Source: Bdellovibrio bacteriovorus
GTDB taxonomy: Bacteria > Bdellovibrionota > Bdellovibrionia > Bdellovibrionales > Bdellovibrionaceae
Assembly (NCBI RefSeq): GCF_001592755.1
Contig: NZ_LUKF01000019.1
Coordinates: 248,001-312,000, forward strand
Direction of reading: 5' to 3'
DNA: 64,000 nucleotides
The notes beneath the pieces were generated by a model. It ran no database searches. It was not told where the DNA came from and saw nothing but the letters and a program-made list of their open reading frames with translations. Within the stretch, counting starts at the first letter, position 1; each line of letters begins with the position of its first letter. A program made the translations under genes and the position numbers. Positions 39,501 to 44,979 of this stretch are shown piece by piece.

Positions 39501-39593
39501 GGAAAGGTGGGTGAGTGGCTGAAACCAAGCGTTTGCTAAACGCTCGTACACTCAAAAGGTGTACCGCGGGTTCAAATCCCGCCCTTTCCGCCA
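39501..39593 (+). tRNA. tRNA-Ser (GCU anticodon)
   Basis: A 93-base class II tRNA with a long variable arm. GGAAAGG pairs with CCTTTCC, discriminator G, encoded CCA. Anticodon loop TTGCTAA gives GCU (codons AGC/AGU). A T-run follows directly. Its 3' 22 bases are also the antisense end of the kinase-GNAT gene. Confidence 0.97.
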
Positions 39594-40816
39594 TTTTTTA
39601 TCTTTTTCGTAAATCGTACCGCACCAATATAATCGTTTCCTGGCGACTGAATCCAATCGTGTTTTTGATAAAACCGAATAGCTCTTTCGTTGCTTTCGGT
39701 AACATTCAGAGTCGCCATTTCAAGGTTATTATCTATAAAAAACTTTAAGGCTGATCTTTCCAAAATTTCAGCCCCACCCTTGCCACGATGTCCGGGAGAG
39801 AGAAAAATCGAACTTATCATGCCGAGGCCACTATCCTTAATGGTAGCTTCACAGATTCCGACAAGATCGGATCCGAACCTTAAATGGACAAGATGCATTT
39901 TTTTACCCAACCAGTTCTTCAATCTTTCATAATACTTTATCCCCCATGGGCCTACAAACGCTTCAAAATCTGCAGTGGACCGATTGCTCTCTAGAAAAAT
40001 AGCTCTCATGCATTCAAGATAGAACTCGAAGTTAGAATTCAAATCGTAAGGTTCGCTGCTTAATATGGAATCAAGAGAAGAACCAGCGAGAAAATTAATA
40101 GCCTGATTTGCACTTTTAAAACGATAAAGTGCAGAGGGTTCTGTCGCGACTGAAATGAATTTTAAAAGATGAGGATCGTATCTTTTAGATTCAGGTATTT
40201 TCTCAAAGTCCCGACCTGCCATTTGATACTTTTTTAAAAAATCTATTCCAAACAGAAGCTGAAATGCTAGTACGCCTATAGAATAAATATCTAACTGAGG
40301 ACTTATGGTCATATCAGGGGGAGTATGTTGTGACAGACTACTTATTCTGTGAGGAGCAAAAGTTCCCATCCGCACAGATTTTCCAAAATCTGCAAGGAAT
40401 ACATGCAGACCATCCTCTTCATAAACTCGCACATTTTCTAATTTTACGTCGCCGTGAATATAACCAGCATTGTGTATTGAACTTAGAGACTTCAGAAGCG
40501 GAAGTAGAATCTCTGACACTAACTTCGCTTGGGTTATCTTGCCGATATAATCAAAAAGATCCTCTTTGATAAACGGAAATACGAGAAAATTTTGTCCTAA
40601 AATATCTTTCGTGCCTAGTAGGGGCATCACATTTTTAATACCACTAAGGGCCTGGTATGCAGTTGCTTCTCGATTTATGTGCTCATTGGAAATCGGATCC
40701 GGTCGAGATGATTTCAAAAAAAACTTCCCATCAAGATTTTCTGCTATATGACCTATAGATAAGCGGTAAACATTTACCGGCGAAATCTCGGTGAACTCAA
40801 AATTCTTTTTAAGCAT
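39572..40816 (-). CDS. Protein kinase-GNAT acetyltransferase fusion
   Basis: 414 residues from ATG 40816 (GGAG seven bases upstream), eight bases inside the preceding HExxH gene. The N-terminal eukaryotic-type kinase has Lys35 in KFFLKSS, catalytic loop HGDVKLEN (122-129, Asp123), ADFG (142-145) and a DIYSIGVLAFQLLFG helix. The C-terminal GNAT domain (about 265-400) has the CoA loop LSPGHRGKGGAEIL and TESNERAIRFYQKHDW. Both look catalytically complete. It is the last gene of the cassette with the HExxH protein and repeat peptide. The end GGKGGI is encoded by the antisense of tRNA-Ser, suggesting the cassette was inserted next to that tRNA. Likely peptide modification, but substrates are unproven. 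Confidence 0.85.
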   Translation of the reverse strand: MLKKNFEFTEISPVNVYRLSIGHIAENLDGKFFLKSSRPDPISNEHINREATAYQALSGIKNVMPLLGTKDILGQNFLVFPFIKEDLFDYIGKITQAKLVSEILLPLLKSLSSIHNAGYIHGDVKLENVRVYEEDGLHVFLADFGKSVRMGTFAPHRISSLSQHTPPDMTISPQLDIYSIGVLAFQLLFGIDFLKKYQMAGRDFEKIPESKRYDPHLLKFISVATEPSALYRFKSANQAINFLAGSSLDSILSSEPYDLNSNFEFYLECMRAIFLESNRSTADFEAFVGPWGIKYYERLKNWLGKKMHLVHLRFGSDLVGICEATIKDSGLGMISSIFLSPGHRGKGGAEILERSALKFFIDNNLEMATLNVTESNERAIRFYQKHDWIQSPGNDYIGAVRFTKKIKNGGKGGI

Positions 40817-41720
40817 AAACAACTCCGGTAAAGTCGAAGATAAGATCCGAAAGAGAAGCCGTTTTTAGTTTCAAAATCAATGTTCTCGCAGCTTCAGGAG
40901 ACATGGCACATGGAATATCTCGAGAGTTGTTTAAGACATTTTCTTGCGCAAAAGATCGATGCTTAATAAGGGTGTCACTTGATATTAGATCGTAGACTTC
41001 CGCATACTCTTTTTCAGCCAAAAAAACTGAGCGAAATTTATCGGCAAAACTGTTAATTGAGCCGATACTGAGGCAATACTTAATAAAGATATTAGCGTCA
41101 CTCTTCTTGCTCGGAACCCGACAAAGCTCTTCAAAGCAATAGGTCATTCCAGTGCGAATTAAATCGTAAGCCAAAATTAAATCCATTGATATACAAAACC
41201 ATTCAATCAAAATAATTAATTCGTGCATTTCCCTGTCTTCGATTTGAATATTTGAATACGCATCTTTGAAATAAAGGTGCGTATTCTCATGATTAAAAGT
41301 GTAAAAAGGAATTCGAATTTGCCCATCTAAGGATGAATAAAACTTCCTTCCCAATGTAACTGTACTATTCCAAGGGCAAAATTCACCAAAATCATCTTGA
41401 ACAAAATGATACAACGTTTTGCCTGCGGAAGCCTCGTTGTTAATCGCTCTATAGTAAGGGGAGTTGTACATAAGACTCGCGTGCCCCGAGACCCAAAAAT
41501 TTTTCTGAATTAATGTGTTTCGGCTAGCCTCCCGCAAAAAATTTAGAGCATCACATTCCTGCGTTGTCAGGGTATCTGTAGGTCTAAAAAAAGTTTCCAC
41601 CGAAAGATTTTTAATTTTTTCAAGACCGTCTAGCCAAATGGAGGTGCCTATGGGATGCTTTAAAGCATTCTTGGAATCAGACATCAAATTCAGCCAATCA
41701 TTAAAGATTTGAGCGTCCAT
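40809..41720 (-). CDS. HExxH-motif protein, putative peptide-modifying metalloenzyme
   Basis: 303 residues from ATG 41720 (AAGGAAG six bases upstream), 15 bases after the precursor gene stop. A clear HExxH (HENTH, residues 144-148) sits in YTFNHENTHLYF, and acidic residues that could be a third ligand follow (EDREMHE; CFEEL). No signal peptide, so it acts in the cytoplasm. It resembles the HExxH-motif peptide-modification proteins found beside RiPP precursors rather than secreted proteases. The reaction is unknown: hydroxylation and proteolysis are both possible. AT-rich, unlike its flanks. Confidence 0.7.
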   Translation of the reverse strand: MDAQIFNDWLNLMSDSKNALKHPIGTSIWLDGLEKIKNLSVETFFRPTDTLTTQECDALNFLREASRNTLIQKNFWVSGHASLMYNSPYYRAINNEASAGKTLYHFVQDDFGEFCPWNSTVTLGRKFYSSLDGQIRIPFYTFNHENTHLYFKDAYSNIQIEDREMHELIILIEWFCISMDLILAYDLIRTGMTYCFEELCRVPSKKSDANIFIKYCLSIGSINSFADKFRSVFLAEKEYAEVYDLISSDTLIKHRSFAQENVLNNSRDIPCAMSPEAARTLILKLKTASLSDLIFDFTGVVYA

Positions 41721-41735
41721 AGGCACTTCCTTTCC

Positions 41736-42092
41736 TTAAGTATTTCCGTATGGAACAAATCGCGTAGTTAATGCATCTACGAGATTCTTGTGCTCAATAC
41801 TTACTTCATCGTCTGTCTGTCCGTATGGTACGAAACGCGTTGCCGTTTTTTGAGCCTCTTTAGCAAGTGACTGTGCTTGAAAAGGATCTCTGAGCATTGA
41901 ATCAAGTTTTCGAATATTTAATACCGCTTTATTGTCATGGATTCGGACGGCGCCTTGACTAACCAAAATTGAAAGTTCAGACGCAGAAATACTCTGCAAA
42001 CGTCTTTCTGATACAATAACCTCATGCGCTGAGGCCATATGGCCATAAAGATTGGCTGTTAGTAAAAGTGCTAAAATTGTCTTTTTATTCAT
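41736..42092 (-). CDS. Secreted precursor peptide with two TRFVPYG repeats
   Basis: 118 residues from ATG 42092 (AGGAG eight bases upstream). Signal peptide about 1-22 (cleavage after ASA), a charged middle region (23-83), then two near-identical decapeptides ATRFVPYGQT (84-93) and TTRFVPYGNT (109-118, the extreme C-terminus), 25 residues apart. The DNA of the two copies differs at synonymous sites (CGT/CGA, TTC/TTT, GTA/GTT) while the peptide is kept, indicating selection on the protein. First gene of the cassette. Best read as a RiPP-type precursor with two cores. A small secreted protein with a duplicated interaction motif is the alternative. Confidence 0.75.
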   Translation of the reverse strand: MNKKTILALLLTANLYGHMASAHEVIVSERRLQSISASELSILVSQGAVRIHDNKAVLNIRKLDSMLRDPFQAQSLAKEAQKTATRFVPYGQTDDEVSIEHKNLVDALTTRFVPYGNT

Positions 42093-42132
42093 AAAGCTTC
42101 TCCTTGTATAAGCTGTTTGATGCTTGTACGAA

Positions 42133-42145
42133 GCACGGACCGTGC
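42133..42145. promoter_or_regulatory. Perfect palindrome gcacggaccgtgc upstream of the repeat-peptide gene
   Basis: Six-base arms gcacgg and ccgtgc around a single A, 41 bases upstream of the ATG. Candidate operator; the protein that would bind it is not encoded nearby. Confidence 0.4.
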
Positions 42146-42362
42146 CCGTCTTCAAATCAAAGGAAATGGGTTTCTGCGGCAATGTCAGCGATTTTGTCCA
42201 ACTTTAAGTACCCGGCGTCCGAAGATTAGGAATATTAGATTCGGCAGTTCATAAGTCGCTAGCTCAATGGGATAGTGGCCTTTCGTTCGCAGGACTATTG
42301 AATTCAAAGATCGTTAACTAGTTAGATTCCTAAAGAATTTTCAAAATTACCAATCCACTTCA

Positions 42363-42388
42363 TAATAGACGGCATTCAGATTATAAAT
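42363..42388 (+). promoter_or_regulatory. Sigma-70-like promoter giving a nearly leaderless slyX message
   Basis: TATAAA at 42382-42387 lies seven bases before the ATG at 42394, with a weak TTCATA 17 bases upstream. No Shine-Dalgarno sequence is present. Confidence 0.4.
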
Positions 42389-43159: not shown

Positions 43160-43645
43160 TTACTTCTTTTTAGGCTTCTTCGAGGAGGATTTTTCAGCCT
43201 TCCGATCGCAGCTTTCCGCTTTTACGAGCTTCATTCCTGAATCCATATCCGGATGAAGAGGATCTGGGACTCTTTCTTTTATATCGTCCCTCATAAAACG
43301 GGCCGTATAAGGTTTGTCTTCTGAAGTAAGCTCTTTGATTTCTTCAGCCGTTTTTGTTGATTCAATTTTTCCACGATAATTTTTTGCAGGCTCGAACAGT
43401 TTCCCTTTAAGCGTGACGGCAGAGTCTTTGTACACACTTGCCACTTCTGCTAGGTCCGGAGCCAACGAAAATACCGTCTCACTCATGGAACCTTCATACA
43501 GCTTGAGGACGGAATTTCCATCCACTTGTTTGATGACGCCTTTGAATTCGTACTCGCCGCATTTGAATTTTTCGTCTGCGTTAGATATGCAAGACGTACT
43601 CAGAATCCACATCATCAACAGACTTTTCCACAGGTGTTTTTTCAT
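43160..43645 (-). CDS. Predicted lipoprotein of unknown function
   Basis: 161 residues. Lipoprotein-like signal ending LSTS-Cys19. Acidic/basic mature chain with a Lys/Ser-rich C-terminal tail (KAEKSSSKKPKKK) and two further Cys (FKCGEY and ESCDRK). No family recognised. Its ATG overlaps the stop of the caspase-like gene (ATGA), so it is the third gene of that operon and may be a partner of the protease. Confidence 0.75.
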   Translation of the reverse strand: MKKHLWKSLLMMWILSTSCISNADEKFKCGEYEFKGVIKQVDGNSVLKLYEGSMSETVFSLAPDLAEVASVYKDSAVTLKGKLFEPAKNYRGKIESTKTAEEIKELTSEDKPYTARFMRDDIKERVPDPLHPDMDSGMKLVKAESCDRKAEKSSSKKPKKK

Positions 43646-44979
43646 AATTTAAAGTCCCTACAGGGATTAGGTTTTTTGTTTTCACTCGAATAAACTTTAT
43701 AAAGTTCGTCGTAAACTTCACGCTCGGCCCTAGCGACGTTCATTGCCTTGTCATGCAATGTCTTGTCATTTCGAAAGTTTGAACGAAGCGACTGCCATGT
43801 TTTGAAAGCGTCGGTATTCACGTACTTTTGATACATAGAAAGTTCTGTTTGTTCTCTTACGGTCAACCCTTTCAGCTTTTTTTTCTCTGTCAGTGCGGTG
43901 ACGCCCGCAATAAATTGCTCTTTCGTTCCACACATTTTCGTATCAGCAACATTGATGCATTCACTCTTATTAAGCTTTTCGGCTTGTTCGTGTGCCTTTA
44001 CTATCTTGTCCCTAGCAGAATTGTAATCGTCTAAAGCTGCTTTCAGTTTATCGATGACAGGCTGATTTTTACTTTTATCAAGACCCATTTGAACGCGCGC
44101 GTACTTATAATAGCTTTGAAAGCCTGCCGCTTTATCAACCTCTTTAAGATCACTGACAAGGCGAAGATACGGAATTGAATTAGTACCGTAGCAAGACATT
44201 TTGCTTAACGGAATTTCTGCAAGTTGATCAGCAGCCATCAGCGAGTTCGTTAAGAACTTTGTGGCGCTAAAGGCTTTTTTGCCAGCGTCCGTAGAAATTT
44301 GCGGAGCCCCTAGCACCAATGCTTTCGGGTCCTTTCTACTAGCCAAGAATGCGCTTTCTAACGAGTTTCCTTTTGTAAGTAACTGACCAAATTTATCTCC
44401 GGATACATTCCAGGCGACTCCTTCGCCACCCATCGAAACGACACATGTTTTGTCAGAGCCTAGCGAAGTCACAGGGCCTGAATGGCAAGACATATCGACG
44501 ATTCCAAGCTGCACACCTTTGGCTTCGGCAAGATCACGAAGCTGTTTAAGTTCATCCATGTTGAATTTGTTGTCGGTCGTGGCAACACTGTGAGTGCGTT
44601 GACCGTCTTTTTGTTTTGCTCCATGCGTGGCGACGGTAATAAGTAATTGATCTCCGGATTTAAGATCCCCGCTTTGAATGCGTTTCTTAAGAGATGCAAC
44701 CTCTGCCTTCATGTTTTCGGCAGTCATCGGTTTATTTGCGCCTTTAAACATATCTTCCGCAAGGGCTTCGGAAATATGATGTCCTCCATCGAAGTACGAG
44801 CGGGCTTTCCAACCGCTGCCTTCTCTGAAAGGCGCAAAGTTTCCATAGGTGGCATCAAAGATCGTCGTTTGGCCGTCGGGCTCGCCGCCACCGCCAAAAA
44901 AGACAATTTCTTTTTTTGCCCAAGCTAAAAATGAAACCGCCGTAACAAAAATTCCCAGGGCGATTTTTTTACTGAACAT
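43642..44979 (-). CDS. Secreted caspase-like (clan CD) cysteine peptidase
   Basis: 445 residues. Signal peptide about 1-21. The clan CD dyad is visible: His119 in LLITVATHGAK and Cys165 in GIVDMSCHSGP, each after a hydrophobic beta strand as in caspase and legumain folds. Helical C-terminal region (about 290-445) with KDKIVKAHEQAEKLNKSE. Function is likely proteolysis outside the cytoplasm. It overlaps the upstream lipoprotein gene by 11 bases and the downstream gene by four, a tight operon. Substrate and maturation are unknown. Confidence 0.82.
   Translation of the reverse strand: MFSKKIALGIFVTAVSFLAWAKKEIVFFGGGGEPDGQTTIFDATYGNFAPFREGSGWKARSYFDGGHHISEALAEDMFKGANKPMTAENMKAEVASLKKRIQSGDLKSGDQLLITVATHGAKQKDGQRTHSVATTDNKFNMDELKQLRDLAEAKGVQLGIVDMSCHSGPVTSLGSDKTCVVSMGGEGVAWNVSGDKFGQLLTKGNSLESAFLASRKDPKALVLGAPQISTDAGKKAFSATKFLTNSLMAADQLAEIPLSKMSCYGTNSIPYLRLVSDLKEVDKAAGFQSYYKYARVQMGLDKSKNQPVIDKLKAALDDYNSARDKIVKAHEQAEKLNKSECINVADTKMCGTKEQFIAGVTALTEKKKLKGLTVREQTELSMYQKYVNTDAFKTWQSLRSNFRNDKTLHDKAMNVARAEREVYDELYKVYSSENKKPNPCRDFKL

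Follow-up and report, generated by a model that had tools for sequence, protein, structure and literature searches.

A three-gene operon beside a tRNA-Ser gene in the window (the whole 64,000-nucleotide stretch of Bdellovibrio bacteriovorus DNA analysed here) encodes a small signal-peptide-bearing protein with a duplicated C-terminal motif (P0001), an HExxH protein (P0002) and a kinase-acetyltransferase fusion (P0003). On balance we lean, with modest confidence, towards reading it as a rare mobile cassette for a RiPP-like (ribosomally synthesised, post-translationally modified) peptide, whose precursor would be modified in the cytoplasm by two enzymes and then exported. The features are as follows.

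39501..39593, plus strand: tRNA-Ser(GCT), adjoining the operon
39604..42380, no strand: operon-bearing cassette of 2,777 bp, absent from the closest relative, G061
39572..40816, minus strand: P0003, eukaryotic-like protein kinase fused to a GNAT acetyltransferase
40809..41720, minus strand: P0002, 305-aa HExxH (HENTH) metalloenzyme-like protein, likely start at ATG 41720
41736..42092, minus strand: P0001, putative precursor gene (118 aa) with a signal peptide, a middle leader-like part and two TRFVPYGxT copies
41739..41765, minus strand: core copy 2, TRFVPYGNT, aa 110–118, the exact C-terminus
41814..41840, minus strand: core copy 1, TRFVPYGQT, aa 85–93
42027..42092, minus strand: Sec-type signal peptide, aa 1–22, MNKKTILALLLTANLYGHMASA, unusually conserved

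The P0001 reading frame runs on the minus strand from an ATG at 42092 to a stop at 41736, and the Shine-Dalgarno-like sequence AAGGAGAAG, read directly, lies immediately 5' of the ATG. A longer frame starting at a TTG was unsupported and was dropped because both relatives described below begin at a conserved MNKKT. The two motif copies are spaced 75 nt apart, with a linker of 16 aa. The first-pass annotation had described a decapeptide in two copies, differing at four synonymous positions and one residue, with the second copy exactly at the C-terminus. Codon comparison bore out the differences (synonymous at R, CGT/CGA; F, TTC/TTT; V, GTA/GTT; and the last T, ACA/ACT; non-synonymous solely at Q/N; identical codons at the first T, P, Y and G), and the terminal position also held. 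The duplication itself stands; its length does not, since the tenth, preceding residue differs (A/T), leaving a nonapeptide with eight of nine residues identical. The best 9-mer self-match in P0001 scored 8/9, against 3–6 in 300 shuffles of the protein, none of which reached it, ruling out a chance origin of the repeat. No direct repeat in the operon DNA is longer than this copy pair (26 nt, 81%). Recent DNA duplication, which the same annotation had argued against, is ruled out as well, with 8 of 30 aligned nucleotides differing, mostly silently.

Convincing homologues of P0001 or P0002 were found in just two further genomes, G259 and G269, among 291 genomes sampled from the phylum, and the two proteins co-occur exactly, in the same 3 of 291. 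Profile searches of these 291 genomes gave no further homologues of either protein, two scans of genome contigs gave none outside the same two relatives, and none were found in the plasmids or viral contigs searched. The relatives' records are MAG contigs, CANFQX010000003.1 (titled Bdellovibrionaceae) and CALQIT020000147.1. The latter (L016) is titled Streptomyces griseus, yet carries a Bdellovibrio-type operon; the title is evidently wrong, since its genome falls in the same family as the window.

The P0001 homologues share 44–51% overall identity (n = 3). Invariant positions number 17 of 25 over aa 1–25, 3 of 9 in the inner copy, 1 of 16 in the linker and 7 of 9 in the C-terminal copy, and pairwise identity over residues 70–84 is merely 13–20%. 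G259 carries TQFIPYGHT at the inner position and ARFVPYGNT at the terminal one, followed by ID. In G269 the terminal copy reads IRFVPYGCT and the inner copy has decayed to KSIPGYTE. Alignment of the related precursors therefore agrees with the earlier proposal that core number varies while the motif is kept: there are two intact copies in the window, two in G259, and one plus the decayed one in G269. The C-terminal copy uses different codons at 4–5 of 7–8 shared residues, a gauge of constraint preferred to dN/dS because silent sites in three sequences at 44–51% identity are too diverged for the latter to inform, and conserved P0001 residues often show silent codon changes along the whole protein.

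The duplicated motif had been ascribed to selection for a peptide product or a bound epitope. The terminal copy behaves as selection for a peptide would have it; the inner copy does so less. Because the inner copy drifts more, selection may act mainly on the terminal copy, a modest claim from three sequences, and the conservation of the motif rests on these three because the family has only three members. Between product and epitope, a peptide product accords better with the genes that share the operon and with the unusually high conservation of the signal peptide. The peptide reading of P0001 is partly supported, mainly for the terminal copy.

By inspection, the P0001 N-terminus (MNKKTILALLLTANLYGHMASA followed by HE) is a classical Sec signal peptide, and inspection together with a crude script places an AXA-like site and a hydrophobic core within it. 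The signal peptide is 77% identical between the window and G259, against 45% for the remainder of the protein. As controls, ten orthologue pairs of signal-peptide-like proteins were taken from these two genomes: their signal parts averaged 11 points below the remainder in conservation and lay at most 24 points above it, and P0001 exceeds every pair in this gap. This pattern, opposite to that of typical orthologues, suggests that the P0001 signal peptide is read by something specific. Preliminary data on bufferins, a RiPP group with Sec signal peptides, indicate that the signal peptide belongs to the recognition sequence (PMC12452194).

The second gene, P0002, is likely to start at the ATG noted above because its homologues begin at that Met. 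It carries NHENTHL, with HEN(T/A)H invariant in all three homologues, and an invariant Glu175 lies 25 residues after HExxH in a conserved helix. P0002 matched no Pfam or NCBIfam model, TIGR04267 included, and its two homologues were likewise unmatched at the TIGR04267 cut-off. TIGR04267 HExxH proteins are alphaKG-dependent RiPP modifiers, and they are common in the phylum (44 of 144 genomes above cut-off); a convincing match is absent from G000 and G259, and G269 has one elsewhere in its genome. RPx5H, a downstream motif in most of 20 aligned TIGR04267 members, is absent from P0002, whose Glu175 falls near the position of the RPx5H His in that alignment. An hhalign comparison of P0002 with TIGR04267 aligned the two HExxH motifs in register and scored 26.1, against 18.6 ± 2.2 in shuffles that kept HExxH, but at a probability of 7%, which makes the link to the family weak. 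We do not assign P0002 to TIGR04267, because it fails the model and lacks RPx5H. Fold prediction was poor, with model confidence falling from 67.1 to 59.8 when family members were added, and fold searches with P0002 returned nothing with E under 0.5 or Z over 3.6. P0002 combines the gluzincin features of HExxH and an invariant downstream Glu with a fold search at noise level. Association would suggest an oxygenase for P0002, and its HExxH-plus-Glu layout a protease.

If P0002 were a gluzincin-like metalloprotease, it would cut the precursor at RFVPYGxT and free an unmodified signalling peptide, with P0003 as regulator. The conserved helix with Glu175 fits such an enzyme, as do the missing RPx5H of the oxygenase family and the weak structural matches, which include HExxH proteases such as PPEP-1 (Z 2.5–2.9); moreover, the HEXXH enzyme PflC can itself hydrolyse peptide if the leader is missing (PMC12636437). 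We nonetheless regard this account as unlikely: P0002 lacks a signal peptide, whereas the precursor has one, the structural matches are at noise level, and simple cleavage needs no kinase-GNAT fusion.

The three genes are tightly packed. The P0002 ATG lies 15 bp after the P0001 stop, and P0003 overlaps the P0002 stop by 8 nt. The order precursor-HExxH-kinase/GNAT is kept in all three genomes, whose proteins are only 42–51% identical, with gaps of 15–26 bp and overlaps of 8–11 bp at the junctions. As in RiPP clusters, a short precursor gene is conserved beside putative modifying-enzyme genes in three genomes, and the operon strengthens the peptide reading of P0001. It also weighs against the view that P0001 is an exported adaptor, with its duplicated motif serving for docking and the other two operon proteins as unrelated passengers. 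Retention of the motif under silent drift is epitope-like, and passengers are conceivable because the operon is a mobile cassette, but the three genes stay together, ordered and with tight junctions, in three diverged genomes, and the one intact copy in G269 speaks against bivalent docking; we consider an adaptor improbable.

P0003 matches the Pfam models Pkinase (1.7e-13) and Acetyltransf_1 (8.8e-13), and its catalytic Lys, HxDxKLEN and DFG are invariant in the three homologues. No other kinase-GNAT fusion was seen, the next-best matches spanning one domain or the other but not both; the neighbours of the GNAT homologues L100 and L101 are unrelated.

Relatives carry different genes or nothing 3' of tRNA-Ser(GCT), marking this site as a hotspot. 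In the window, the operon sits between this tRNA gene and slyX, and the final codons of P0003 overlap the 3' end of the tRNA in antisense orientation. In G061 the corresponding flanks, at 96.5% and 90.5% identity, lie 76 bp apart, compared with 2,777 bp in the window, as determined by blastn of the flanks against L174 together with tRNA order and the sequences. GC content is 37–40% within the cassette versus 42–47% across most of the flanks. There is no integrase gene within the cassette and no att-like direct repeat of at least 12 nt at its two ends, and promoter and terminator scans gave no excess over chance. From its sequence, the cassette looks like an acquisition at a tRNA hotspot. That it instead serves in anti-phage defence or as a toxin system, the kinase being the effector, is very unlikely: its 2.8 kb at the tRNA-Ser 3' end, a site occupied by other genes in relatives, would suit this, and the kinase domain matches defence kinases such as MkoA, Mad6 and PD-T4-6 in PADLOC, but those matches are confined to the generic kinase domain, P0001 and P0002 have no PADLOC match, and we know of no anti-phage defence or toxin system that features a signal-peptide-bearing repeat peptide. 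Beyond the cassette, window positions 43642–44979 encode a 445-aa protein that matches the caspase-like model Peptidase_C14 weakly, scoring under its curated cut-off.

Under the favoured reading of a RiPP-like peptide cassette, P0001 would be a precursor in which the signal peptide is followed by a middle part and by one or two short cores, R-F-V-P-Y-G-x-T, at the C-terminus, with the Sec signal peptide probably doubling as recognition leader. Before its export, the core would be processed by P0002, a putative cytoplasmic HExxH metalloenzyme that might hydroxylate or cleave it, and by P0003, which might transfer phosphoryl or acetyl groups to it. The product would be exported by Sec, or in G259 possibly by an ABC transporter encoded upstream. 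That P0001 is the substrate of the operon enzymes, which chemistry they carry out and that a peptide is released are inferences; the product might serve as a signal, as an antibacterial or in metal binding. Modification in the cytoplasm is hard to reconcile with a Sec signal unless export is delayed, and a search for a dedicated protease or recognition-element domain found none. The G259 transporter gene, 1.1 kb upstream of the operon, is homologous to TIGR04267-adjacent transporters in five other genomes (25–34% identity, E down to 4e-68); this homology is independent support for a link to TIGR04267 systems. A transporter of this type is missing from the window's genome and from G269.

More tentatively, the family may represent a new class of ribosomal peptide system in predatory bacteria, in which Sec-exported precursors bearing one or two RFVPYGxT cores are matured by an undescribed HExxH family and a kinase-GNAT fusion, and which has spread on a cassette linked to a tRNA gene. 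To our knowledge, Sec-signal RiPP precursors are rare and to date tied mainly to MNIO enzymes. If the reading is true, the P0001 system would broaden that group by an example that lacks a Cys motif and pairs a kinase-GNAT fusion with a divergent HExxH enzyme, and P0002 would add an enzyme family that has no existing model. A peptide product in predatory bacteria could then act between predator cells or on prey.

Other HExxH loci in the phylum were also noted. In Bdellovibrionota, TIGR04267 genes often adjoin genes for a signal-peptide mini-protein, a family-5 solute-binding protein and a histidine kinase (L062:1183–7233, L060:3027–9080, L054, L065, L145, L064 and L066), some with a sigma-54 response regulator; these loci are possibly a modified-peptide signalling system. 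Signal-peptide mini-proteins are modestly enriched beside HExxH genes (6/28 versus 11/166, p = 0.02). At L053:4253–4465, a 70-aa ORF lying 49 bp upstream of a TIGR04267 enzyme gene contains two perfect copies of the long repeat LVDEVFGESRVNGVIIDI and is by its sequence a candidate for another two-core precursor. A family of ABC transporters of ∼450 aa ending in E(V/S)RH repeatedly adjoins HExxH genes (L014:5688–7070, L050, L051, L057, L063 and L067).

HExxH enzymes are established RiPP modifiers, one of whose clusters includes a GNAT (PMC12636437), and one HExxH enzyme hydroxylates a conserved Pro near a C-terminal motif (PMC13060819). The alphaKG-HExxH RiPP clusters (pfl/pos, pes; TIGR04267 mod_HExxH) resemble the P0001 operon in that a small precursor adjoins an HExxH protein. 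The pfl cluster has a GNAT, which in P0003 is kinase-fused; precursors of these clusters end in a short conserved motif (ARMD, R(V/T)DN), as P0001 does in RFVPYGxT; and a related ABC transporter occurs in one P0001-bearing relative, G259. Unlike the alphaKG-HExxH enzymes, P0002 fails the TIGR04267 model and is without RPx5H, and unlike their clusters the P0001 operon has a Sec signal peptide on the precursor, a kinase-fused GNAT and no MNIO.

Bufferins and other MNIO-modified RiPPs of the Sec-signal type share with P0001 a Sec signal peptide on the precursor, apparently part of recognition (PMC12452194). The P0001 operon differs from bufferins in its enzymes and in having neither an MNIO or DUF2063 partner nor a conserved Cys motif; in place of an MNIO with a Cys-rich core, it encodes only HExxH and kinase-GNAT proteins, and the window precursor has no Cys. 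The Bdellovibrionota mini-proteins (L054, L065, L145 and L060/L062/L129) are, like P0001, small Sec-signal proteins beside an HExxH gene. A comparison of the P0001 leader with the other HExxH-associated mini-proteins gave no clear case of homology, L060 alone being marginal (2 of 200 shuffles as good), and the mini-protein operons differ from that of P0001 in adding a solute-binding protein, a histidine kinase and sometimes a response regulator.
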